From Deltaproteobacteria bacterium (GTDB taxonomy: Bacteria; Desulfobacterota; Binatia; DP-6): 45,768 bases of DNA. The notes under the pieces are model-generated. The model saw nothing but the letters and a program-made list of their open reading frames with translations. It made no database searches and was not told where the DNA came from. How positions within the stretch are numbered: position 1 is the stretch's first letter; every line of letters starts with the position of its first letter. The position numbers and the translations under genes were made by a program. The stretch is from assembly GCA_005879585.1 (NCBI GenBank), contig VBKG01000300.1:1-45768 (forward strand). The letters run 5' to 3'. Positions 6,963-45,668 of this stretch are shown here, one piece after another.

Positions 6963-8212
6963 TCCGGGGCGGCGCCGTCCTCGACGGCGAGGTCACCGTG
7001 AGCGGCGCCAAGAACGCCGCCCTGCCGCTCCTCTTCTCCACCTTGCTCACGCCGCACCGCTGCGTCGTCCGGAACGTGCCCGTGCTGCGCGACATCCGGA
7101 CCGCGGTCGCGGTGCTGCGCCACCTCGGTGCCCGGGTGGAGTCGACGGCCGACGGTCACGAGATCCGCGTCGAGGCCGGCGCCGTCGACCGCAGCGAGGC
7201 GCCGTACGACCTCGTGAAGACCATGCGTGCCTCGTTCCTCGTCCTGGGTCCGCTCCTCGCGCGCTTCGGCCGTGCGCGCGTCTCTACGCCTGGCGGCTGC
7301 GCCATCGGCGCGCGGCCAGTCGACCTGCACCTCGCGGGGCTGCAGAAGATGGGCGCGCGCATCCGCATCACCGAGGGCTACGTCGAGGCCGAGGCCGACC
7401 GCCTGCGCGGCGCCAAGATCGTGCTCGACATGCCCTCGGTCGGCGCGACGCAGCAGCTGATGATGGCGGCGTCGCTGGCCGAGGGCACCACGGTCATCGA
7501 GAACGCGGCGCGCGAGCCGGAGAACGTCTGTCTGGCGGGCGCGCTCGAGCGCATGGGCGCGCGCGTGAGCGGCGCCGGCACGCCGGAGATCACCGTCGAA
7601 GGTCGTCCGGAGCTCGACGGCGCCGACGTGACCGTCATCCCCGACCGCATCGAGGCGGGGACGTACATGGTGGCGGCGGCGATCACCGGCGGCTCGGTCG
7701 TGGTGGGCGGCGCCCGGGGCGATCACCTGGACGCGTTCACCGCCAAGCTGCGCGAGGCCGGCGTCACGGTGCGCGAGGATCCGAGCGGCGTCCGCGTCTC
7801 TGCACGGGGGACGCTCGCCGCCGCCGACGTGAAGACGATGCCGCATCCCGGCTTTCCGACCGACCTCCAGGCGCAGTTCATGGCGCTCATGACCCAGGCC
7901 GCGGGGACCAGCACGATCACGGAGACGATCTTCGAGAACCGCTTCCTCCATGCCCAGGAGCTCGTCCGCATGGGGGCCGAAATCCGCGCCGACGGCAACC
8001 GCGCGATCATACGCGGCCGCGCGGCGCTGTCGGGCGCGCCCGTCATGGCGACGGACCTGCGCGCCAGCGTCTGCCTCGTGCTCGCCGGCCTCGCCGCACG
8101 CGGGACGACGCGGGTCGCGCGCGTGTACCACCTCGACCGCGGGTACGAGCGCGTCGAGGAGAAGCTCCGCGCGCTCGGCGCCGACATCCGGCGCGAGGCG
8201 GGGACGGCGTGA
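6947..8212 (+). CDS. murA: UDP-N-acetylglucosamine 1-carboxyvinyltransferase
   Basis: 421 residues, standard length. The protein starts [20 protein letters not shown]; the GTG at 6947 is preceded by a strong purine-rich ribosome site ending at about 6942. The active-site loop [13 protein letters not shown] carries Cys118, equivalent to Cys115 of the E. coli enzyme and the residue that fosfomycin alkylates. MurA transfers enolpyruvate from PEP to UDP-GlcNAc, the first committed step of peptidoglycan synthesis, in the cytoplasm. It overlaps prmC upstream and hisD downstream. murA upstream of his genes is a recurrent arrangement in deltaproteobacteria-like genomes. Confidence 0.96.
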
Positions 8213-9522
8213 CGGAGCTCGTCTGCATCGCGGGCAGCGCCGCCGCCCGCCGGCGTCTGGCACGCCTGGAGCAACGTGGCGAGATTGCGGGGGCGAAGGT
8301 GGAGGCGGACGTCCGCCGCATCATCGCGGCGGTGCGCCGCGGCGGCGACCGCGCGCTCGTGGCACTCACCCGGCGGTACGACGGGGTCTCGCTTCGCCGG
8401 AGCGAGCTGCGCGTGCCGCCTGCGGCACTGGCCCGCGCGCATCGCGCACAGCCCGTGGTGGTGCGCCGCGACCTCGCCCTCGCCGCCGGGCGCATCCGGA
8501 CTTTCCACGCGCGACAACGCGAGCGGTCGTGGTCGTTCCGGGACGCGACCGGTGCACGTCTCGGGCAGCGCATCGAGCCGCTCGCGCGGGTCGGCGTCTA
8601 CATCCCCGGCGGCCGCGCCGTCTATCCGTCGACCGTCCTGATGACCGTGGTCACGGCGCGCGTCGCCGGCGTGCGCGAGGTGATCGCGGTCACGCCCGTG
8701 GGGACGAGCGGCGACCACCCGCTCATCCTCGCCGCCTGCCACGTCGCGGGCGTCGACCAGCTCTATCGCCTCGGCGGCGCGCAGGCCATCGCCGCCCTCG
8801 CGTTCGGTACCGAGACGGTCCCGCGCGTCGACAAGATCGTCGGACCGGGCAACATCTGGGTCGCGACCGCCAAGCGGCTCTGCTACGGCCACGTCGACAT
8901 CGATTCCATCGCCGGGCCGAGCGAGGTCGTGATCGTCGCGGATCGGTCGGCGGCGCCGGATCTCGTGGCGGCCGACATGCTCGCCCAGGCGGAGCACGAC
9001 CCGCTGGCGGCGGCGGTCTGCCTGACGACCGACCGCCGGCTCGCCGCGCGCGTCGCCGAGGCGCTCGCCGCCCAGCTCGCGACGCTGCCGCGGCGCGCGA
9101 TCGCGGCGCGAGCGCTCGGCGCCTTCGGGGCAATCGTCGTCACCCGGTCGCTCGCCGAGGCGATAGAGATCGTGAATCGCCTGGCCCCCGAGCACGTGGA
9201 GCTGGCGGTCCGAGATCCGGCCGCGGTCGCCGCGGGCGTGCGGCACGCGGGCGCCGTCTTCCTCGGCCAGGACGCGCCCGAGGCGCTCGGCGACTACGTC
9301 GCCGGGCCGAACCACGTGCTCCCGACGGGCGGAACGGCGCGCTTCGCGTCGCCGCTCGGCGTCTACGATTTCGTGAAGCGGACGAGCGTCATCGGGGCCG
9401 GCCGGCGGACGATCACCACCCTCGGCCCGGCCATCGTTCGTCTGGCCCGTCTCGAAGGGCTCGATGCCCACGGCCGCGCCGTGGAGCGGCGGCTCGCCGC
9501 CATGGGAGGAGGACACCGATGA
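8209..9522 (+). CDS. hisD: Histidinol dehydrogenase
   Basis: 437 residues. Conserved segments: [56 protein letters not shown] (zinc-binding Gln/His) and [13 protein letters not shown]. The enzyme carries out the last two steps of histidine synthesis, oxidising histidinol to histidine with two NAD+. The GTG start overlaps the murA stop (GTGA). The gene normally expected between murA and hisD in this type of cluster, hisG, is absent. Confidence 0.96.
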
Positions 9523-10142
9523 CACTGCGCGCCCGCCGCGCTCCATCGCGGCCGCACGAGCGGACGGCCACGGTCGAACGGCGCACCAAGGAGACGGACA
9601 TCCGACTCCAGCTGAACGTCGACGGGAGCGGGCGCTACCAGGTGGAGACCGGCATCCCGTTCCTGAACCACATGCTCGAGATATTCACGCGCCACGGGTT
9701 CTTCGACCTCACGCTGCGCGCGACCGGCGACCTCGATGTCGACCACCATCACACGGTCGAGGACGTCGGGCTGACGCTCGGCCAGGCGTTCCGGGAGGCG
9801 CTCGGCGACAAGGCCGGCATCCGCCGCTTCGGCGAGGCCGCGGTGCCGCTCGACGAGGCGCTCGTGACGACCGTCGTCGACCTGTCCGGACGCCCGTTCT
9901 TCGTCTACGACGTGCGCATCGAGCAGCCGAAGATCGGCAACTTCGACGTCGAGCTGATCCACGACTTCCTGCTGGCCCTCACCAACCAGGCGGCGATGAA
10001 CCTCCACGTCCGGATGGGCTCGGGCCGGAACCCGCACCACATCGTCGAGGCCACGTTCAAGTCGCTGTCCCGCGCCATGGACCTCGCCACGCAGCGCGAT
10101 CCGCGGCTGTCCGGCGTGCTGTCGACGAAGGGATCGCTCTAG
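9519..10142 (+). CDS. hisB: Imidazoleglycerol-phosphate dehydratase
   Basis: 207 residues, the single-domain bacterial form without a fused histidinol phosphatase. The two metal-binding motifs are [15 protein letters not shown] and [12 protein letters not shown]. It dehydrates imidazole glycerol phosphate to imidazole acetol phosphate at a di-manganese site. The ATG at 9519 overlaps the hisD stop and has GGGAGGAGG upstream. The first dozen residues ([11 protein letters not shown]) are an Arg-rich extension not typical of the family. No histidinol-phosphate phosphatase or aminotransferase (hisC) lies in the window. Confidence 0.95.
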
Positions 10143-10151
10143 GCCGTCGCC

Positions 10152-10778
10152 ATGCAGCCGCTCGCGGTCGTCGACTACGGGATGGGGAACCTGCGGTCCG
10201 TGCAGAAGGCGCTCGAGCGCGTCGGGCAGGCGGCCGAGGTGACGCGCGATCCCGAGCGGATCGCCGCCGCGCCGGGCGTCGTCCTGCCGGGCGTCGGGGC
10301 GTTCGGCGCCTGCATGGCGAATCTCCGCGCACTCGGGCTCCTCGAGCCCGTGCGCCGGGCGATCACCGCCAACCGCCCCTTCCTCGGCATCTGCCTCGGC
10401 ATGCAGCTGCTCTTCGACGAGAGCGAGGAGTTCGGGCCCATCGAGGGCCTGCACGTGCTGCCCGGGCGCGTCGTCCGTTTCCCGGCCGACGCGGAGCGGA
10501 AGGTGCCGCACATGGGATGGAACACGCTCCGCATCGCGCGGCGGGTGCCGCACCTGGCCGGCATCGCGGACGGGTCCCACGTGTACTTCGTGCACTCGTA
10601 CTACCCGGTGCCGGCGGATCCCGCGCTCGTGGCGACGGCGACGCCGTACGGGGTCGAGTTCGCCTCGAGCGTCGTGCGCGACAACGTCTTCGCCTGCCAG
10701 TTCCATCCCGAGAAGAGCCAGGCCGTCGGGCTGCGTCTCCTCGAAAACTTCGTCGCCGTGGTGCGCGGCCGCGCATGA
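10152..10778 (+). CDS. hisH: Imidazole glycerol phosphate synthase, glutaminase subunit
   Basis: 208-residue class I glutamine amidotransferase. It starts [16 protein letters not shown]; the nucleophile Cys81 is in [12 protein letters not shown], and His/Glu of the triad are in CQFHPEKSQ. It hydrolyses glutamine and channels ammonia to HisF, encoded two genes downstream. The start is 9 nt after hisB, and its stop overlaps the hisA ATG (ATGA). Confidence 0.95.
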
Positions 10779-11494
10779 TCGTCTATCCGGCGATCGACCT
10801 GCGCGGTGGCCGCTGCGTCCGGCTCATGCAGGGCGAGTTCGACCGGGAGACGGTGTACGGCGACGATCCCGTCGCGGTCGCGCGAACCTGGGCCGCGGCC
10901 GGCGCGGCGTGGCTGCACGTCGTCGACCTCGACGGCGCGCGCGCTGGCAGGCCGCTGCAGACGCATCTGGTGCGCGAGATCTGCCGTGCCGTGCCGATCC
11001 CGGTGCAGGTCGGCGGCGGCCTGCGCGACGTGGACGCGGTCGCCGCGGTGCTCGCCGCGGGTGCGGCTCGCGTCGTGGTCGGCACGATCGCCGTTCGCGC
11101 GCCGGCCGTCTGCGCCGGGCTCTGCGGCGCCCACCCCGGCCGCGTGGCGGTCGGGCTCGACGCGCGCGGCGGCCGCATCCTGGTCGCAGGCTGGACGGAG
11201 AGCGAGAACGTCGACGCGGTCACCGTCGCGGCGCGGGTCGCCGCGATGGGCGCGGCAGCCGTCATCTATACCGACGTCGAGCGGGACGGGACCGAGCGCG
11301 GTCCGGACCTCGCCGGGACGCGCGCTGTCGCGCGCGCCGCGCGCGTGCCGGTGATCGCGTCGGGCGGCGTCGGCTCGCTCGACGATGTCCGCGCGATCGC
11401 GTCGCTCGGGGTTGCCGGCATCATCGTCGGTCGCGCGCTCTACACGGGAGCGATTCGCCTCGCCGACGCGCTCGCCGCGGCCGAGGCCGCCTGA
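10775..11494 (+). CDS. hisA: ProFAR isomerase (phosphoribosylformimino-AICAR phosphate isomerase)
   Basis: 239-residue (beta/alpha)8 barrel. The N-terminal [20 protein letters not shown] carries the catalytic Asp8, and the phosphate-binding segments VGGGLRD and [10 protein letters not shown] are present. It performs the Amadori rearrangement of ProFAR to PRFAR, the substrate of HisF-HisH. The ATG overlaps the hisH stop, and its TGA overlaps the hisF ATG by one base (TGATG). I considered the bifunctional PriA form, which also serves tryptophan synthesis, but cannot judge it from this sequence. Confidence 0.95.
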
Positions 11495-12264
11495 TGCTCG
11501 CGCGCCGCATCATCCCGTGCCTCGACGTGAAGGACGGCCGCGTCGTCAAGGGCGTGCGCTTCGTCGACCTGATCGACGCGGGCGATCCGGTGGAGATCGC
11601 CACCCGCTACGACGCGGAGGGCGCCGACGAGCTCTGCTTCCTCGACATCACGGCATCGCACGAGGAGCGGCCGATCATCCTCGACGTCGTCGCCCGCACC
11701 GCCGAGCGCGTCTTCATGCCACTCACGGTCGGCGGCGGCGTGCGCACCGTCGACGACGTCCGCGCGCTGCTGAAGGCCGGTGCCGACAAGGTGTCCATCA
11801 ACACCGCGGCGGTCGCGCGGCCGGACTTCGTCCGCGAGGCGGCCGAGCGCTTCGGCACGCAATGTGTCGTCGTCGCGATCGACGCGCGCCGCCGCGTCGC
11901 GGACGACGCGCGTAGTGGCTGGGAGGTCTACACGCACGGCGGTCGGACGCCGACCGGCCTCGACGCCGTCGACTGGGCGGCCGCCATGGAGGCGGCCGGG
12001 GCGGGCGAGATCCTCCTCACCAGCATGGACCGCGACGGCACGCGCGCGGGCTACGACCTCGAGCTCACCCGCGCCGTCGTCGACCGCGTCGGGATCCCGG
12101 TGATCGCATCGGGGGGTGCCGGGACGCTCGAGCACCTGTACGATGGCCTCGTCACGGCGGGCGCCGGCGCGGCGCTCGTCGCGTCGATCTTTCACTACGG
12201 CGAGCACAGCGTGCACGACGCGAAGACCTACCTCGCCGATCGCGGCGTGGCCGTCCGGCGGTAG
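11494..12264 (+). CDS. hisF: Imidazole glycerol phosphate synthase, cyclase subunit
   Basis: 256-residue (beta/alpha)8 barrel. [18 protein letters not shown] contains the catalytic Asp11. VVVAIDARR carries the second catalytic Asp, and [16 protein letters not shown] is a phosphate site. With HisH it converts PRFAR plus ammonia to imidazole glycerol phosphate and AICAR; AICAR is the same compound as ZMP, which links this operon to purine synthesis and to the ZTP riboswitch near 41.4 kb. No hisI or hisE follows: an unrelated membrane-protein gene starts 2 nt after the stop. Confidence 0.96.
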
Positions 12265-28065: not shown

Positions 28066-29385
28066 GTGACCCTGTCGCAACTTCGGCGCGACGCGCTCGA
28101 CTGCTTCGCTGCCGCGGTCGACGCCGTGGAGCCGCGGCGGCTGGTCGCGGCGTGGCTCCGCCGCGTGGACGACACGGTCCGTCTCGGCGCCGGCGTGGGG
28201 GCGTGCCACGCCGGGCCGGTGCTCGTCGTCGGAGCGGGGAAGGCGGCGCGGAGCATGGCGGAGGCGGTGGCGCAGGTCGTCGGCTCCGCGCTGCGCGGGG
28301 GGGTCATCGTCGTGCCGCGTGGGCTCGACGTGGCGCCGATCGGCGCGATCACCGTCGAAGCGGGGGGACATCCCGTGCCCGATGCGGCCGGGGAGGCGGC
28401 GACGCGACAGCTCCTCGACGCGGTCGCCGCGGCCGACCCGACGACGCTCGTCCTCGTCGTGCTCTCGGGCGGCGCTTCCGCGCTCCTCGTCGCGCCCGCG
28501 CAGGGGGTCGAGCTGCGGGACAAGCAGGACGTCACGCGCCGGCTGCTTCTCGCGGGCGCGGACATCGCGGCGCTCAACACGGTGCGGAAGCACTGCTCGC
28601 GGGTGAAGGGCGGCGGCCTCCTGCGCGCCGCCGCCGAGACCGCCGGCGTCTGGACGCTCGTCCTGTCCGACGTGATCGGCGATGCCCCCGACGTCATCGG
28701 ATCGGGGCCGACGGTGGGCGACCCGAGCACGTTCACCGATGCCGCCGCGGCGCTCGGCCGCTTCCTCGCGCCCGACGACGTGCCGCTCGCGGTCCGCCGT
28801 CACGTCGAGCGCGGCGTCGCGGGTCGCGTGCCCGAAACGCTGAAGGCCGGCGACCCGCTGCTCTCGAAGGCGCGGACCGTCGTGGTGGGCCGGAACCGCG
28901 ACGCGGTCGCGGCGGCGGCCACCGCCGCGAAGGCGCGCGGCTACGACACCTCGGTCGTCGCCGACCCACTCCATGGTGACGCGGCGAGTGCCGGCCGAGC
29001 AGTCGCGGGGGCGCTCGCGGCGTCGCGGCGCGATCGGCCCGTCGCCGTCGTCGGCGGCGGCGAGACGACGGTGCGCGTCGTCGGCGACGGCCGCGGCGGC
29101 CGATGCCAGCACCTCGCGCTCACGGCGGCGACGCTGCTGGCAGGCACACCGGCCGTGCTTCTTGCCGCCGGCACCGACGGCATCGACGGGCCGACCGACG
29201 CCGCCGGAGCCTGCGTCGACGGCGAGACGACGGCGCGAGCGCGCGCGCTCGGCTTCGACGCCGCCGCGGCGCTCGCCCGGACGGACAGCCATCCGCTGCT
29301 CGACGCCACCGGCGACCTCGTGCGGACCGGACTCACGGGGACGAACGTCGCCGACGTGGTGGTCGCGCTGCGTGCCGCGTGCTAA
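28066..29385 (+). CDS. Glycerate 2-kinase, DUF4147/MOFRL family
   Basis: 439 residues from a GTG. The N-terminal DUF4147 domain contains VVGAGKAARSMAEAV, VLSGGASALLVAPA, RKHCSRVKGGGLLRAA and LSDVIGDAPDVIGSGPTVGDPS. The C-terminal MOFRL domain shows VVGGGETTVRV and AGTDGIDGPTDAAGACVD. Enzymes of this type phosphorylate D-glycerate to 2-phosphoglycerate with ATP, in the serine cycle, glyoxylate or sugar-acid use. It is also annotated as hydroxypyruvate reductase in older databases. queE follows after 11 nt. Confidence 0.88.
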   Translation: MTLSQLRRDALDCFAAAVDAVEPRRLVAAWLRRVDDTVRLGAGVGACHAGPVLVVGAGKAARSMAEAVAQVVGSALRGGVIVVPRGLDVAPIGAITVEAGGHPVPDAAGEAATRQLLDAVAAADPTTLVLVVLSGGASALLVAPAQGVELRDKQDVTRRLLLAGADIAALNTVRKHCSRVKGGGLLRAAAETAGVWTLVLSDVIGDAPDVIGSGPTVGDPSTFTDAAAALGRFLAPDDVPLAVRRHVERGVAGRVPETLKAGDPLLSKARTVVVGRNRDAVAAAATAAKARGYDTSVVADPLHGDAASAGRAVAGALAASRRDRPVAVVGGGETTVRVVGDGRGGRCQHLALTAATLLAGTPAVLLAAGTDGIDGPTDAAGACVDGETTARARALGFDAAAALARTDSHPLLDATGDLVRTGLTGTNVADVVVALRAAC

Positions 29386-34786: not shown

Positions 34787-35824
34787 ATGGCCGTTTACAC
34801 CGAGCTCGGGACGCGAGAGCTCGCCGAAATCGTCGACGACTACGGACTGGCGAAGCTCCTCGCCGCGAGCGGCATCGCCGCGGGGTCGGTCAACACGTCG
34901 TATCTGCTCGAGACCGCGCGCGGGAAGCATCTCCTGCGCATCGACGAGGTGAAGAGCGAGCTCGAGGTGAAGCGCGAGCTCGACCTGCTGCTCTTCCTCC
35001 GCAAGCACGGCTTCCCGTGCCCGCAGCCGATCGCCGACCGCAAGGGCCGGCACCACCGCGAGATGCACGGCAAGTGTCTCACGCTCTACCGCTACGTCGA
35101 CGGCCACACCGTCGCCCCCACGCGGCTCACCGCCGCGCAGATCGAGAACGTCGGCCGCGTGCTCGCCGATCTCCACACGATCGGCAAGAGCTACAAGAAG
35201 GGCATCGACAACCGCTTCAGCTACGACCGCGTCGCGGATCTGTACGCGCAGGTGCGGGACCGCCTGCCGACGTACTTCAAGCGCATCGTCCGCACGCTCG
35301 ACGACGAGGTCGATTACCTCCAGGGATATCTCGAGAACAAATTACCGAAGGGCGTCATTCACGGCGATCTCTTCGACGACAACGTCATCTTCAAGGGCGA
35401 CAAGGTCGTCGCCATGCTCGATTTCGAGGCGGCGTGCCGCGGCAAGTTCGTCTTCGACCTCGCCACCGCGGTGAACGCGCTCTGCTTCGACGGTGAGAGC
35501 TACCAGCTGAAGCGGTTCGAGGCACTGATCGCGGGCTACGAGTCGCTGCGGGCACTGTCGCTCGCCGAATGGGACGCCTTCCCCAACGAGCTGCGCTTCT
35601 CCGCCCTCCGCTTCACGATCACCCGTCTCCACGATTTCTTCCTGAATCCAGTCGACGCGCGTGCACGCGTGAACAAGGACTTCCGGGAATTCTACGAGCG
35701 GCTAAGGATCTTGCGGCGGGAGCGCGACGGGGCCATGGAAGGGCTGCTCATGGCCATGGCCACCGGATACGACTACCGCAAGTACCAGAAGGTGAAGGCG
35801 CTCGAGAAGAAGGGCTCGCACTAG
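34787..35824 (+). CDS. Homoserine kinase type II (ThrB-like, APH fold)
   Basis: 345 residues with the aminoglycoside-phosphotransferase fold. GSVNTSYLLETARGKHLLRID is the glycine-loop/Lys region. The catalytic loop GVIHGDLFDDNVIF and the metal-binding AMLDFEAACRGKFVFDLA follow. The pattern closely matches type II homoserine kinases, which phosphorylate homoserine on the route to threonine. Related sugar or choline kinases cannot be excluded. The ATG at 34787 is preferred over a GTG 6 nt upstream because of ribosome-site spacing. metF follows after 35 nt. Confidence 0.85.
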   Translation: MAVYTELGTRELAEIVDDYGLAKLLAASGIAAGSVNTSYLLETARGKHLLRIDEVKSELEVKRELDLLLFLRKHGFPCPQPIADRKGRHHREMHGKCLTLYRYVDGHTVAPTRLTAAQIENVGRVLADLHTIGKSYKKGIDNRFSYDRVADLYAQVRDRLPTYFKRIVRTLDDEVDYLQGYLENKLPKGVIHGDLFDDNVIFKGDKVVAMLDFEAACRGKFVFDLATAVNALCFDGESYQLKRFEALIAGYESLRALSLAEWDAFPNELRFSALRFTITRLHDFFLNPVDARARVNKDFREFYERLRILRRERDGAMEGLLMAMATGYDYRKYQKVKALEKKGSH

Positions 35825-35859
35825 GCAAACGCGAGCGCCCCGGCCGCGTCCGGCGCGCG

Positions 35860-36771
35860 ATGAAGATCACCGACATCCTCGCCCGCGGCGGGCCCTGCAT
35901 CTCGTTCGAGTTCTTTCCCCCGAGGACGCCCGACGGCGAAGCCACCCTGCTGCGCACCATCGAGGCGCTGAAGCCCCTCGGACCGGGCTTCGTCTCGGTG
36001 ACCCGTACGGGGGCCAAGCCGCGCGAGGCACCCGTCGAGCTCGTGATGCGCATCCGCGCGCTCGGCATCGAGGCGGCTGCCCACGTCACGTGCATCGAGG
36101 CGAGTCGCGAGGAGCTCGCGGCGCACTACGACCTGATCGCCGCGCGAGCCATCGACAACGTCGTGGCGATCCGCGGCGATCGGCCGAGCGATCCGGGGTT
36201 TCGCCCGCCGGCGGACGGTTTTGCGTACGCCGCCGACATGATCCGTTTCGTCCGGAGCCGCGGCCACGCGCTCTGCCTGATCGGTGGCGGGCACCCCGAA
36301 GGTCACCCGGAATGCCGGGACCTCCGCCGCAACATCGAGCATCTCAAGATGAAGGTCGACGCCGGGCTCGACGCCGTGATCACCCAGCTCTTCTACGACA
36401 ACGCCGACTACTTCACCTTCGTCGAGCGGGCGCGGCGGGCCGGCGTCGGCGTGCCGCTCATTCCCGGCATCATGCCGATCACGAACGTGCCGCAGATCGA
36501 ACGGATCACCGCGCTCAGCGGCAACCAGATTCCGGCGGCGCTCCGCGCGGCGCTCGAGCGCGTGCGGGACGACGAGGACGCCGCGCTCGCGATCGGCGTC
36601 GAGTGGGCGACGCGCCAGTGCGCCGAGCTCCTCCGCGCCGGCGCGCAGGGAATCCACTTCTACACGCTCAACAAGTCGCCGGCGACGCGGGCGATCTTCG
36701 AGAACCTCCGGAGCGAAGGGCTGGTCGGCGCGGCGCCCGCGCACCTTGCCACGTCGGCGCCCATCCGTTAG
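35860..36771 (+). CDS. metF: 5,10-methylenetetrahydrofolate reductase
   Basis: 303 residues, the bacterial catalytic-domain-only form. CISFEFFPPRTPDGEATLL is the signature N-terminus with the catalytic Glu in SFEFFPP. VAIRGDRP, NIEHLKMKVDAGLDAVITQLFYD and VPLIPGIMPITN follow. It reduces methylene-THF to methyl-THF for methionine synthesis, using FAD. Its place after a homoserine kinase-like gene and before folE makes a methionine/threonine and folate group. No riboswitch fits in the 35-nt gap upstream. Confidence 0.94.
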   Translation: MKITDILARGGPCISFEFFPPRTPDGEATLLRTIEALKPLGPGFVSVTRTGAKPREAPVELVMRIRALGIEAAAHVTCIEASREELAAHYDLIAARAIDNVVAIRGDRPSDPGFRPPADGFAYAADMIRFVRSRGHALCLIGGGHPEGHPECRDLRRNIEHLKMKVDAGLDAVITQLFYDNADYFTFVERARRAGVGVPLIPGIMPITNVPQIERITALSGNQIPAALRAALERVRDDEDAALAIGVEWATRQCAELLRAGAQGIHFYTLNKSPATRAIFENLRSEGLVGAAPAHLATSAPIR

Positions 36772-39448: not shown

Positions 39449-41233
39449 TCAGAACCGCGCGAACCAGGGGACGGAGGGGCGGCCCTTCCGCTCCACCACG
39501 ACCTGGTAGTGCGAGAGCAGGCGCCCCTGCGCGCGTCGCCATTGCGCGACGGCGATCGCGTAGTCGATCTTCGCCTGCACTTCGGCGGCGCGGGCGGTCG
39601 TGAGCCGCGTCTGGAAGTCGAGGAGGTCCTTCGTCGTCGCCATGCCCACCTCATGGCGCTTCTCTTGGTTGCGCAGGTTCTCCTCGGCGAGCTCGCGCGC
39701 GACGCGGGTCGTGTCGATCCGCTGGCGGGCGGACGTGAGGTTGGCCGTGCTCTGCCGGACCTCCAGCGTCACCGTCGACAGCGTCTCGCGGTGGTTCAGC
39801 TCGGCCTCCGTGCGCGCGATCCGGCTCTGCGTGATCTCGCTGCGCGCGAGCGCGTTCGACAGAGGTACCTGGAACTGCAAGCCGACCGAGTACGTTCGGA
39901 AGTCGTTGGATGTGAGCCGCTCATACGCCTCGCTCGCCGGGCCGGCGAAGGGCGACGTGCCGAACGACACGGTGGCCGGCACCTGGCAGATAAAGCCTTC
40001 GCCCGGACCGAGCGGGATGCACCGGCCGCCGCCGAGGTCGGTCGGGCTGAAGCGGTTGACGAGCGTCGTCGTCGAGATCGGGCGGTTCGTTCCCGACAGC
40101 CCGTTGACGCCGTAGCTGCCGACGAGGTCGAGCTGGGGCAGCAGCGCGTTCGACGCGATGCGCTCGTTCAGCTGCTGGGTCCGGACACCGCGCGCCGAGG
40201 CGAGCACCTCGGGCCGCTCCTCGATCGCGACGGCGAGGTCGCGGTCGAGGTCGACGGCGACTTCCTCCGGCACCGCCTCCTCGGCGGGCTCGAGGGTCCG
40301 TGGCACGAAGGTGTCGTGCGGCCGGTAGTAGACGAGCTGCGCGAGCAGCTGGCGCGCGACCGCGAGGTCGTTATCGGCGCGGATCACCTGTTCCTCGCGG
40401 CTCTTCGCGTCCGCCTGCGCCTCGAGGACGGCGACCGGCGGCAGCAGGCCGACGCGGACCCGTGCCTCGTTCTCGTCGACGGTGCGATCCGCCAGTGCCT
40501 TGGATTCGCGCTGGACCTGGAGGTTCTCGCGCGCCCGCACGATGCTCCAGTAGCCCTCGATCACCTGCTCCACGAAGTTGGCGAGCTGCGCCTCGTACTG
40601 AAAGAGCGCCGCCTCCGCCGTCTGCTGGGCCACCCGGACGACGAGATAGGAAAAATCCCAGCCGAAGTTGCGGAGCAGCGGTTGGACGACGGAGAGGTTC
40701 AGCTGCGTCTTGTACTGCGGCCGGAGCTGCTGGAAGCGCGGATTGGCGTCGAGGCGGTCGTTCAGGAAGTCGACGGTGGCGAGCGTGCCGGTCCGGAACG
40801 TCTTGAACAGGTGAAGGTTCGCGCTCCGGTCGTCCGTGACGAGCGTGCGCGTGCCGGCGAGCGAGCTCGCATTCGGCGTGATGCTGTGGGTGCGGGTCAA
40901 CTCGCCGGAGAGCGTGGGGTCGAAGCTCGACTGTGCCTGCAGGACGGCCGTCTCCTGCCGTGTCGGCTCGAGGCGCTGCGCCGCGATGCCGGGGTTGTTC
41001 TCGAGCGCGATGGCGATCGTCTCCTTGAGCGTCACCTGCTGGACCTCGTCGTCGCGTGTGATCGGCGACGGGACGCGGAGCGCGTCGCTCTCCGGCAGGC
41101 CGCGGCGCCAGGACGGCACGAGGCCGGCCCCGCGCCAGGTGGAACCGCCGACGTCGGAGGGCCCTTCGCCGGCACACGGGATCGCCGCGGCGAGCGACGA
41201 CACGAGCAGGCAAGCGAAAAGGCGGCGCGACAC
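39449..41233 (-). CDS. TolC family outer-membrane efflux protein
   Basis: 594 residues with a signal peptide (MSRRLFACLLVSSLAAAIPCAG). Two OEP repeats follow: the first opens with LKETIAIALENNPGIAAQRL and contains long coiled helices (RENLQVQRESKALADRTVDE); the second contains VGLQFQVPLSNALARSEITQ and EKRHEVGMATTKDLLDFQTRL. TolC proteins form trimeric channel-tunnels across the outer membrane and periplasm for efflux or type I secretion. At 594 residues it is longer than E. coli TolC because of a signal-proximal extension and a loop near 390-440. No adjacent pump genes are present. Confidence 0.9.
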   Translation of the reverse strand: MSRRLFACLLVSSLAAAIPCAGEGPSDVGGSTWRGAGLVPSWRRGLPESDALRVPSPITRDDEVQQVTLKETIAIALENNPGIAAQRLEPTRQETAVLQAQSSFDPTLSGELTRTHSITPNASSLAGTRTLVTDDRSANLHLFKTFRTGTLATVDFLNDRLDANPRFQQLRPQYKTQLNLSVVQPLLRNFGWDFSYLVVRVAQQTAEAALFQYEAQLANFVEQVIEGYWSIVRARENLQVQRESKALADRTVDENEARVRVGLLPPVAVLEAQADAKSREEQVIRADNDLAVARQLLAQLVYYRPHDTFVPRTLEPAEEAVPEEVAVDLDRDLAVAIEERPEVLASARGVRTQQLNERIASNALLPQLDLVGSYGVNGLSGTNRPISTTTLVNRFSPTDLGGGRCIPLGPGEGFICQVPATVSFGTSPFAGPASEAYERLTSNDFRTYSVGLQFQVPLSNALARSEITQSRIARTEAELNHRETLSTVTLEVRQSTANLTSARQRIDTTRVARELAEENLRNQEKRHEVGMATTKDLLDFQTRLTTARAAEVQAKIDYAIAVAQWRRAQGRLLSHYQVVVERKGRPSVPWFARF

Positions 41234-41265
41234 TGCGAGTGCCGCTAACGGATAAGCGCAGACGA

Positions 41266-41279
41266 GTCAACGAATTGAC
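41266..41279. promoter_or_regulatory. Small inverted repeat between tolC and the aminotransferase operon
   Basis: GTCAA, CGAA, TTGAC. It lies 33 nt from the tolC start and 31 nt upstream of the plus-strand -35 box, so it could be an operator. The match is short and may be chance. Confidence 0.3.
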
Positions 41280-41309
41280 AGCGCAGGACGGTCGTGGGCG
41301 TGCGCTGCC

Positions 41310-41338
41310 TTGACAACCGCGGGAGCGCGCGGCTAAAC
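41310..41338 (+). promoter_or_regulatory. Promoter of the aminotransferase-serA-purA operon
   Basis: A perfect TTGACA (41310-41315), a 17-nt spacer, then CTAAAC (41333-41338), a weak -10. Transcription would begin near 41345, just before the riboswitch candidate. Confidence 0.5.
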
Positions 41339-41350
41339 GAACGGGGACTA

Positions 41351-41433
41351 CGATCCTTCGCACGACTGGCGTTCGCGTGGAATCGACCACGGGGGAGTGC
41401 TGATCGCGCAGCGGGCCGAACGCCTGGGCCCAC
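41351..41433 (+). promoter_or_regulatory. Candidate ZTP/ZMP riboswitch (pfl motif)
   Basis: The leader shows the conserved blocks of the pfl motif in order: CGACTGGCG (41363-41371), a GTGG/CCAC hairpin (41376-41380 with 41387-41391), GGGGGAGTGC (41391-41400) and the 3' block CGCCTGGGC (41421-41429). P1 pairs CGATC (41351-41355) with GATCG (41402-41406) and GCAC (41360-41363) with GTGC (41397-41400). The pseudoknot GGCG (41368-41371) with CGCC (41421-41424) is present. Such riboswitches sense ZTP/ZMP and turn on purine and one-carbon genes, matching serA and purA downstream. CCCAC (41429-41433) could pair with GTGGG (41442-41446), hiding a GGTGGGG ribosome site. Confidence 0.8.
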
Positions 41434-41458
41434 GGCCGAGGGTGGGGTCCACGCAGTC

Positions 41459-42508
41459 GTGATCAAATCGTACCTGCTCGCGCCCGGGTTGCGGGAGCTG
41501 TTCGGCACCGCGCAGGACGTCCTCGTGCTCGCCGCCTCGGGCACGGGCGCCATGGAAGGGTCGGTCACGAACCTGCTCTCGCCCGGCGACGAGGCGATCG
41601 TCGTCAACGGCGGCAAGTTCGGCGAGCGTTGGACGAAGATCTGCCAGGGCTACGGCGTCGTCGTCCACGAGGTCGTCGTCGAGTGGGGGCGGGCGGTCGA
41701 GCCGACGGCGGTGGCGCAGGCGCTCGAGTCGCACCCGAAGGCCCGTGCGCTCTTCGTGCAGGCGAGCGAGACCTCCACCTGTGCGCTGCACCCGGTTCCC
41801 GCGCTCGCCGAGCTCACGCGACGGCGCGACGTCCTGCTCGTCGTGGACGGGATCACGGCGGTCGGCGTTCTCGACCTGCCGATGGACCGGCTCGGCATCG
41901 ACGTGCTCGTCACCGGCTCGCAGAAGGCGTTGATGCTACCGCCGGGCCTCGCCTTCGCGGCACTCTCGGAACGCGCGTGGGCGGCGGTCGAACGGGCGCG
42001 GCTGCCCCGCTTCTACTTCGATTTCCGGCGGGAAAGAAAGGGCGTTGCGGAGCGCTCCACCGCCTGGACCCCTGCCATCTCGCTCGTCTACGGGCTGCGG
42101 GCCGCGCTCCAGCTGCTGCTCGAGGAGGGGCTCGCGGAGGTCTATGCGCGCCACGACCGGCTGGCGCGCGCGACGCGCGCGGCAGCCTCCGCGCTCGGGC
42201 TTCGCCTCCTCGCCCCCGAATCCCCGAGTCCGGCGGCGACGGCGATCTGTCTACCGGCGGGCTTCGATGGCAGCGCGCTCTTCCGGTACCTGCGCGACCG
42301 CATGCGGGTCACGTTCGCCGGTGGCCAGGACCGGCTGAAGGGGAAGATCATCCGGATCGCGCACCTCGGGTACGTCGACGCGTTCGACGTGGTGACCGGG
42401 GTGGCGGCGCTGGAGCTCGGGCTCCGCCACTTCGGCGCGCCGGTCGAGCTCGGGCGCGGCGTCGGTGCGGCGGAGGTGGTGCTGGCCGAGGGGTTGCCGG
42501 CGCGCTGA
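41459..42508 (+). CDS. Class V aminotransferase, alanine-glyoxylate/serine-pyruvate type, with apparent N-terminal in-frame deletion
   Basis: 349 residues from the GTG at 41459. It begins VIKSYLLAPG and continues directly with LRELFGTAQDVLVLAASGTG. Relatives have about 34 residues between these blocks (PTPVPPEV-like and HHRTP-like segments), which are missing here. The rest is intact: VNGGKFGERW, ETSTCALHPV, LLVVDGITAVG, and VTGSQKALMLPPGL with the PLP-binding Lys. The frame is open upstream to 41294, but that stretch is the riboswitch leader. Being directly ahead of serA, it may act as a phosphoserine or serine-glyoxylate aminotransferase. Whether it can still fold and work is uncertain. Confidence 0.8.
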   Translation: MIKSYLLAPGLRELFGTAQDVLVLAASGTGAMEGSVTNLLSPGDEAIVVNGGKFGERWTKICQGYGVVVHEVVVEWGRAVEPTAVAQALESHPKARALFVQASETSTCALHPVPALAELTRRRDVLLVVDGITAVGVLDLPMDRLGIDVLVTGSQKALMLPPGLAFAALSERAWAAVERARLPRFYFDFRRERKGVAERSTAWTPAISLVYGLRAALQLLLEEGLAEVYARHDRLARATRAAASALGLRLLAPESPSPAATAICLPAGFDGSALFRYLRDRMRVTFAGGQDRLKGKIIRIAHLGYVDAFDVVTGVAALELGLRHFGAPVELGRGVGAAEVVLAEGLPAR

Positions 42509-42509
42509 G

Positions 42510-44099
42510 ATGGTGTACCGCGTCCTGCTGACCGACCCGCTCGGCCCGGAGGGACTGGAGCAGCTGCGCCAGCACCGGGAGCTCGACGTCGTCGCGCGCA
42601 CCGACCTCGGGCCGCGGGAGCTGCCCGAGGCGATGCGGGGCTTCCACGCGCTCATCGTCCGGAGCCGCACCAAGGTGACCGCGGACAGCCTCGCCGGCGC
42701 CGACGCGCTCCGTGTGATCGGGCGGGCCGGCATCGGCGTCGACAACATCGACGTCGCGGCGGCCACCAAGCGCGGCGTCGTCGTCATGAACACGCCGGGC
42801 GGCAGCAACGTCACGACGGCCGAGCACGCGATCGCAATGCTCCTGTCGCTCGCCCGCAACATCCCGCAGGCCAATGCCGCCGTGAAGACGGGCACGTGGC
42901 CGCGCGAGCGCTGGATCGGCACCGAGGTCTGCAACAAGACACTCGGCGTCGTCGGCCTCGGGAACATCGGCACGATCGTGGCGGAGCGGGCGCTCGGCCT
43001 GCGCATGAAGGTGATCGCCTTCGACCCCTTCGTCACCGCTGAGGGTGCCGCGCGGCTGCGGGTGGAGCTCGTTCCGCTCGACGAGCTGTTCGCGCGCGCC
43101 GACTTCATCACCGTCCATACGCCGCTCACGCCCGAGACGCGGGGCCTCATCGGCGCTGCGACCCTCGCGCGCATGAAGCGCGGGGTCCGGCTGGTCAACT
43201 GCGCGCGCGGCGGCATCGTCGACGAAGAGGCGCTCGCCGCCGCGATCCGCTCCGGGCACGTCGCCGGCGCGGCGCTCGACGTCTTCGCCCAGGAGCCGCC
43301 GCCGTCCGGCCACCCGCTCCTCGCGCTCGAGCAGGTGATCGCGACGCCGCACCTCGGGGCGTCCACGGGCGAGGCGCAGGTGAACGTCGCCGTCGCCATC
43401 GCGCAGCAGGTGGCGGACTTCCTCTGCCGCGGCATCATCCAGAACGCCGTCAACGCCCCCTCGCTCTCGCCCGAGGTGGTCCAGGTGCTGCGACCGTACC
43501 TGCAGCTCGCCGAGAAGCTCGGCGCACTCGCCGGCCAGCTCCTCCCCGAGCCGCCGGTCGAGGTTGCGGTCGAGGTGAGCGGCGAGGCCGCCGAGCGCGA
43601 GAGCCGGGCGCTCACCACCGCCGCGCTCCGCGGTCTCCTCGCGCAGCTCCTCGACCCGAGCGTCAACTACGTGAACGCGCCCGCCTTCGCCCGCGAGCGC
43701 GGCATGAAGGTGATCGAGTCGCGGGCGACGCAGCCGAGCGACTACCTGAACGCGGTCCGCGTCCGGGTGCAGACGGCGTCGCGCACGACGACCGTCCAGG
43801 GAGCGGTGTTCGGCGCGGAGACGATCCGGCTTACCAGCATCGACGGCTTCCGCATGGAGGCGGTTCCCGAGGGACACATCCTCATGCTGCATAACCGCGA
43901 CGTGCCCGGCGTCGTCGGCCGGGTGGGCACGCTCCTCGGCGAACGCGGTATCAACATCGCGGGCATCGAGCTCGGTCGCGAGCGCGTGGGCGGCATGGCG
44001 CTGTCGCTCATCCACGTCGACGAGCCGGTGCCGCCGGAGGTCTTGTCGGATTTGCGGAAGCTGCCCCAGATCGTCTCCGCCGCCGTGCTGAGTCTCTAG
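42510..44099 (+). CDS. serA: D-3-phosphoglycerate dehydrogenase, long form with ACT domain
   Basis: 529 residues. The NAD-binding fold has LGVVGLGNIGTIVAERALG. Catalytic-domain landmarks are VIGRAGIGVDNIDVAAA, LVNCARGGIVDEEALAAA and ATPHLGASTGEAQVNVA. An intervening domain (about 315-450) and a C-terminal ACT domain (ILMLHNRDVPGVVGRVGTLLGERGINIAGIELG, seen in two halves) suggest feedback control by serine. It oxidises 3-phosphoglycerate, opening serine synthesis and hence one-carbon supply for purines. The start is 1 nt after the aminotransferase stop, so the two are translationally coupled and both lie under the riboswitch. Confidence 0.95.
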   Translation: MVYRVLLTDPLGPEGLEQLRQHRELDVVARTDLGPRELPEAMRGFHALIVRSRTKVTADSLAGADALRVIGRAGIGVDNIDVAAATKRGVVVMNTPGGSNVTTAEHAIAMLLSLARNIPQANAAVKTGTWPRERWIGTEVCNKTLGVVGLGNIGTIVAERALGLRMKVIAFDPFVTAEGAARLRVELVPLDELFARADFITVHTPLTPETRGLIGAATLARMKRGVRLVNCARGGIVDEEALAAAIRSGHVAGAALDVFAQEPPPSGHPLLALEQVIATPHLGASTGEAQVNVAVAIAQQVADFLCRGIIQNAVNAPSLSPEVVQVLRPYLQLAEKLGALAGQLLPEPPVEVAVEVSGEAAERESRALTTAALRGLLAQLLDPSVNYVNAPAFARERGMKVIESRATQPSDYLNAVRVRVQTASRTTTVQGAVFGAETIRLTSIDGFRMEAVPEGHILMLHNRDVPGVVGRVGTLLGERGINIAGIELGRERVGGMALSLIHVDEPVPPEVLSDLRKLPQIVSAAVLSL

Positions 44100-44103
44100 C
44101 CCG

Positions 44104-45393
<1,290 letters not shown>

Positions 45394-45394
45394 C

Positions 45395-45420
45395 CGACCC
45401 GAGACTCATGTCTCGGGTCG
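45395..45420. terminator. Perfect 11-bp hairpin after purA
   Basis: CGACCCGAGAC, loop TCAT, GTCTCGGGTCG, starting 1 nt after the purA TAA. The position suits a terminator, but no T-run follows. Confidence 0.45.
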
Positions 45421-45668
45421 GAGCCAGACGCTAGCGTGAAGGGACAGTACCACGCGCGACTGCCGTGCCGCGGCTGGCGAAGCCAGCGCGGCATGCGGGT
45501 ACGCGCCCGGCGCGCATCGCTCGATCGGCGGATGCCGCCGCAGCGGTGAAGCCGCCAGCCTTCGGCGTGCTGGACAGGCATCGCCACAGAGGCGTCGGCG
45601 GCGCGCGCGGGTCACCGAGCGTTCCACTCTCGCGTCCGGTCCCGACCCGAGACGAAGGTTCGGGTCGG
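45395..45668 (-). repeat. Dispersed intergenic repeat, copy 3 (hairpin-capped)
   Basis: It runs from a perfect hairpin at 45395-45420 to an imperfect one at 45642-45668 (CCGACCCGAGAC/TTCGGGTCGG). About 45393-45605 is the near-identical reverse complement of the copy at 17.8 kb. It separates purA from rpiB. Nothing in it resembles a gene. Confidence 0.85.

Follow-up and report, generated by a model that had tools for sequence, protein, structure and literature searches.

A ZMP/ZTP riboswitch with a terminator-less expression platform and a reduced first gene in front of an aminotransferase–serA–purA operon of a Binatia-like family

Contig VBKG01000300.1 of a Deltaproteobacteria bacterium (assembly GCA_005879585.1; GTDB lineage Binatia, DP-6), analyzed over its 45,768 nt and referred to here as the window, carries an operon of a class-V aminotransferase, serA, and purA. 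The host genome amounts to 5.28 Mb in 625 contigs; its class, going by the named genomes closest to it, is apparently Candidatus Binatia. The leader of this operon raises the question of whether it houses a riboswitch for ZMP/ZTP and, if so, by which expression platform the genes behind it are controlled. ZTP riboswitches precede purine and one-carbon genes and overlap with transcription terminators (PMC2864571, PMC7266159); the genes listed for the pfl motif include purH, fhs, pfl, glyA, and folD (PMC2864571). A preliminary description made from the letters of the window proposed such a riboswitch with translational control.

The aptamer is readily identified. A cmscan search of the whole window against all Rfam families returns RF01750 (ZMP-ZTP) as the single match and no other RNA family. 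It scores 54.2 bits against a gathering threshold of 39 (E 3.5e-6), and the alignment spans the full model from 1 to 86. The aptamer features the helices P1, P2, and P3 as well as a pseudoknot that joins the internal loop of the first domain to the loop of P3 (Table 1), and the invariant signature columns of the family, ACUG and CG.CUGGG among them, are present. The ordered sequence blocks, the core of P1, and the pseudoknot are thus as first described, but P1 is not intact throughout: its outer half is weak, with 3 of 10 Rfam pairs non-standard. The outer pairs of P3 are likewise weak.

Covariation was assessed in 46 orthologous aptamers preceding the same operon. Pairs were counted on anchored segments; a MAFFT alignment shifted P2 across the clade outside the class. 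In every one of the 46, standard pairs make up the inner part of P1 (four), P2 (five), the inner part of P3 (three), and the pseudoknot (four). In P1, both sides change at pair 1 (C-G/U-A), pair 2 (A-U/G-C, also G-U), and pair 4 (G-C/C-G/U-A); in P2, pairs 1 and 3 change. Pair 2 of the pseudoknot is G-C in the window and A-U in seven leaders outside the class (GGCG/CGCC to GACG/CGUC). Compensatory changes, which had been named beforehand as a check together with the family score, are hence found in P1, P2, and the pseudoknot. Since the score exceeds the gathering threshold and the orthologous leaders covary, the element is, as judged by sequence comparison, a genuine ZMP/ZTP riboswitch and ordinary for its class.

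Table 1. Positions of leader and operon features in the window
Feature	Position	Strand	Basis
Promoter: −35 TTGACA (41310–41315), 17-nt spacer, −10-like CTAAAC (41333–41338)	41310–41338	+	family conservation
ZMP/ZTP riboswitch aptamer (RF01750)	41352–41436	+	cmscan, full length
P1 core helix GCAC/GUGC	41360–41363/41397–41400	+	46/46 standard pairs, compensatory changes in orthologues
Pseudoknot GGCG/CGCC	41368–41371/41421–41424	+	46/46 standard in orthologues
P2 hairpin CGUGG/CCACG	41376–41391	+	46/46 standard; C-G/G-C and U-A/C-G changes
P3 hairpin GGGCC/GGCCC	41413–41417/41427–41431	+	Rfam alignment; inner three pairs 46/46 standard
Putative expression platform: hairpin 41425–41433/41442–41451, competing with P3 and covering the ribosome-site-like GGGG	41425–41451	+	same place as the terminator hairpin in other families; U-tract absent
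Shine–Dalgarno-like GGGG, weak, 11 nt before the GTG start	41444–41447	+	sequence
Class-V aminotransferase (serine/alanine-glyoxylate type), GTG start	41459–42508	+	PF00266
serA, 3-phosphoglycerate dehydrogenase; ATG 1 nt past the aminotransferase stop	42510–44099	+	TIGR01327, 666 bits
purA, adenylosuccinate synthase	44104–45393	+	NF002223, 600 bits; TIGR00184, 519 bits

The promoter-like TTGACA noted earlier upstream of the aptamer is present and kept in all members of the window's family. The arrangement TTGACA-N17-(C/A)TAAAC occurs in 7/7 genomes, with ATAAAC in one of them, and in 66 of 68 leaders a TTGAC is found no more than 75 nt upstream of the aptamer. A generic sigma-70 scan does not call the promoter of the window, the −10 element of which departs from TATAAT.

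Downstream, the profile matches listed in Table 1 bear out the proposed target operon. Its genes are tightly packed, with gaps of 1 nt between aminotransferase and serA and 4 nt between serA and purA; the latter two are intact and score above their family cut-offs. The preliminary description regarded this gene set as less usual for the riboswitch; in fact, it is the standard ZTP target of the Binatia-like class. RF01750 occurs in 63 of 148 genomes of this class, and among the 64 distinct aptamers obtained by motif recovery, 57 precede aminotransferase–serA–purA, 6 precede glyA, and 1 ends at a contig edge. The host itself (G000) has a second ZTP aptamer in front of glyA on contig C271 (L118/L001). 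The operon as such also occurs in many Deltaproteobacteria-type, Nitrospirota, Nitrospinota, and other genomes, where the riboswitch is mostly absent: none of 15 scanned loci of Nitrospirota, Nitrospinota, or Methylomirabilota type carries it. Outside the class, riboswitch and operon occur together at seven loci (L033, L035, L038, L043, L044, L052, and L058). No canonical SerC exceeds the cut-off in any of the seven family genomes, for which reason the class-V aminotransferase likely performs the transamination step of serine synthesis.

The expression platform sets the window's family apart from its relatives. Outside the family, 49 of 50 aminotransferase leaders feature a terminator with a U-run, the exception being L020; the 3′ side of P3 (CCUGGG.CU..) also serves as the 5′ strand of a strong hairpin, behind which the U-run follows. 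Within the family, the U-run is gone in 7/7 genomes. A terminator scan finds neither an intrinsic terminator nor a U-run in 41230–41520 of the window, and the same scanner finds a terminator in the relative L004 as a positive control. The old terminator arm adjoins the start codon in most members of the family, and in G003, G005, and G006 the second strand of the hairpin ends in AGGUG, and 4–6 nt separate it from the GTG start. In the tree, the family forms one clade (100/100) nested among the terminator-bearing families of the class; the change of platform is therefore derived and probably happened once. Taken together with the family-wide lack of the U-run and the arm near the start codon, this nesting is best read as pointing to translational control. 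In L020 (genome G051), which belongs to another family, the U-run is also lost and a separate ribosome site is kept—a possible intermediate.

Folding is less telling. Pairing of CCCAC (41429–41433) with GTGGG (41442–41446) had been proposed to hide the ribosome site. Positions and outline of this hairpin hold, whereas the core conserved in the window's genus, in which the GGGG ribosome site is weak and 11 nt distant, is UGGGCCC/GGGGUCCA (41425–41431/41444–41451), and the inner A-U and C-G pairs occur in the window only and are missing in the sister species. The helix is also not the best fold: the sequestering hairpin amounts to −13.6 kcal/mol compared with −16.5 kcal/mol for an alternative local fold, and in G004, too, the fragment examined has another minimum-energy fold. 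A local GUGG/CCAC hairpin, which is compatible with P3, is predicted to cover the ribosome site of the window as well. A constrained partition function of the ligand-free and ligand-bound states gives no clear opening of the ribosome site and is uninformative in this GC-rich leader. The proposed translational control is thus backed by the comparison of families and the missing terminator, but not by a ligand-dependent change at the ribosome site, and is likely on the former grounds and not on energies. Translational control is further favored by the glyA copy on C271, in which an 8-bp helix GGUGCCUC/GAGGCACC covers the ribosome site beside the ATG.

The first gene of the operon is damaged. Compared with G001 and G002, exactly 102 nt (34 codons) are missing in frame after codon 9, with the junction at about 41485/41489, and the protein measures 349 instead of 383 residues. 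Among the lost residues are GP and HHR, which about 130 relatives share without exception, and the aminotransferase as assembled here probably does not function; the deletion may be real or an assembly error. A full-length copy elsewhere in the genome was sought, and only paralogues of about 35% identity were found on C344 and C243. In G003, an assembly of 20 contigs and 100% completeness, the gene is reduced to a 48-codon ORF (L112, 2172–2318) between riboswitch and serA. The start codon and about 41 N-terminal residues survive in this remnant, which stops 11 nt before serA, and the genome keeps aptamer, serA, and purA. With the first gene broken in two of seven family members, the data suggest that the switch is kept for the sake of serA–purA. 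The operon may accordingly be in transition.

We hold it to be fairly probable that the riboswitch controls translation and is a genetic ON switch. Ligand stabilization of the aptamer is established for the ZTP class; for the window leader we infer it, together with sequestration and coupling. A shortage of 10-formyl-THF would let ZMP/ZTP accumulate and stabilize the aptamer including P3 and the pseudoknot. With ligand bound, P3 would sequester 41427–41431; in the ligand-free state, these nucleotides would pair with 41442–41451 and mask the ribosome site in front of the first ORF. Bound ligand would thus let ribosomes translate this ORF and, through tight coupling across the short gaps, serA and purA as well, the outcome being more serine as a one-carbon source and more AMP synthesis. 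The host's second switch, that of glyA, would turn the serine into one-carbon units. The hairpin itself would be the derived form of the ancestral intrinsic terminator that the other families of the class retain. A fuller course of events has, in our estimate, an even chance of being right: in one Binatia-like family, the output would have moved from transcription termination to translation control by loss of the U-tract and of the spacer behind the terminator, which left the former terminator arm as the ribosome site or next to it; thereafter the first gene would have become dispensable and shrunk—down to the short ORF of G003—with the switch still driving serA–purA by translational coupling.

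Other explanations of the leader have to be weighed against this ON switch. That it merely resembles a riboswitch by chance draws on the high G+C content and on nothing else; it is ruled out by the family search and the covariation, and the E-value over the window together with the constant location of the aptamer ahead of this operon across tens of genomes leaves it a negligible probability. It is unlikely, if far less so, that transcription is still what the riboswitch controls, for instance through Rho-dependent termination of an untranslated leader or through a weak terminator without a U-tract. The terminator of the other families sits at the same place, and the stem of the hairpin is kept. 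An RNA that is inefficiently translated can, moreover, become accessible to Rho. What speaks against action on transcription is that the leader region of the window holds no U-run or terminator-like site and that most family members have the arm directly ahead of the start codon.

The leader might also be a relic that still binds ligand through a platform that no longer switches while the first gene decays. Both the deletion in the window gene and the near-complete loss in G003 fit such a decay, as do the weak ribosome site and the lack of a clear switch in thermodynamic folding. Yet every genome of the family conserves the promoter and the aptamer core in intact form, serA and purA show no damage, and even G003 retains aptamer, start codon, and an ORF reaching up to serA, which makes a relic quite improbable. 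The translational ON switch is consequently the preferred reading.

Only the family-wide change of platform and the reduced first gene are unusual here; the rest belongs to a known riboswitch class, and a limited literature search found no earlier report of these two points. Like the pfl motif of RF01750, the leader features the aptamer core, P1 to P3, the pseudoknot, a position before one-carbon and purine genes, and a platform competing with P3. It differs in the operon of class-V aminotransferase, serA, and purA and in the lack of a U-tract in the family's platform. The ZTP/glycine tandem riboswitches of Bacillus and Oceanobacillus, predicted ON switches ahead of a gene whose product starts the route from 3-phosphoglycerate to serine, share the ZTP switch at a serine-synthesis gene (PMC9481103), whereas the second, glycine aptamer is theirs only, and Rfam reports none in the window. 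The pfl riboswitch of C. beijerinckii (PMC10085676) and that of F. ulcerans (PMC7484762) are transcriptional and work by ligand-gated strand displacement. A downstream strand competes with P3 in these and likewise in the remaining families of the class; in the window's family, by contrast, the competing strand lacks a U-tract and lies against the start codon. For terminator-type ZTP switches, covariation between aptamer and platform has been reported (PMC13273304).

The ZTP regulon would thereby be extended, with folate stress in this lineage turning on serine synthesis, purA, and glyA together. Moreover, platform evolution is usually hard to study because platforms diverge quickly; the present close series of leaders, in which most families have a terminator and one a hairpin at the ribosome site, constitutes a natural experiment on platform change with aptamer and operon held constant.

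Further features of the window and of the related aptamers touch on the same metabolism or locus. The histidine genes at 8209–12264 comprise hisD-like, hisH-like, hisA, and hisF; the last, placed at 11.5 kb in the preliminary description, indeed lies at about 11506–12207 within the ORF 10909–12264, beside hisA and the hisH-like amidotransferase. AICAR is a by-product of the histidine pathway, and histidine flux thus also feeds the ligand pool. Just past purA, a strong inverted repeat CGACCCGAGAC..GTCTCGGGTCG without a U-run occupies 45395–45420, and a related one follows about 245 bases on at 45643–45668. The ZTP aptamers L031, L060, L173, and L174 carry long inserts between P1 and P3 (total about 100–124 nt), and L167, a glyA leader, carries one before P2. 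A glycerate kinase-like protein (DUF4147/MOFRL) and a methylenetetrahydrofolate reductase, both linked to serine and one-carbon metabolism, are encoded at 28066–29382 and 35569–36768, respectively.
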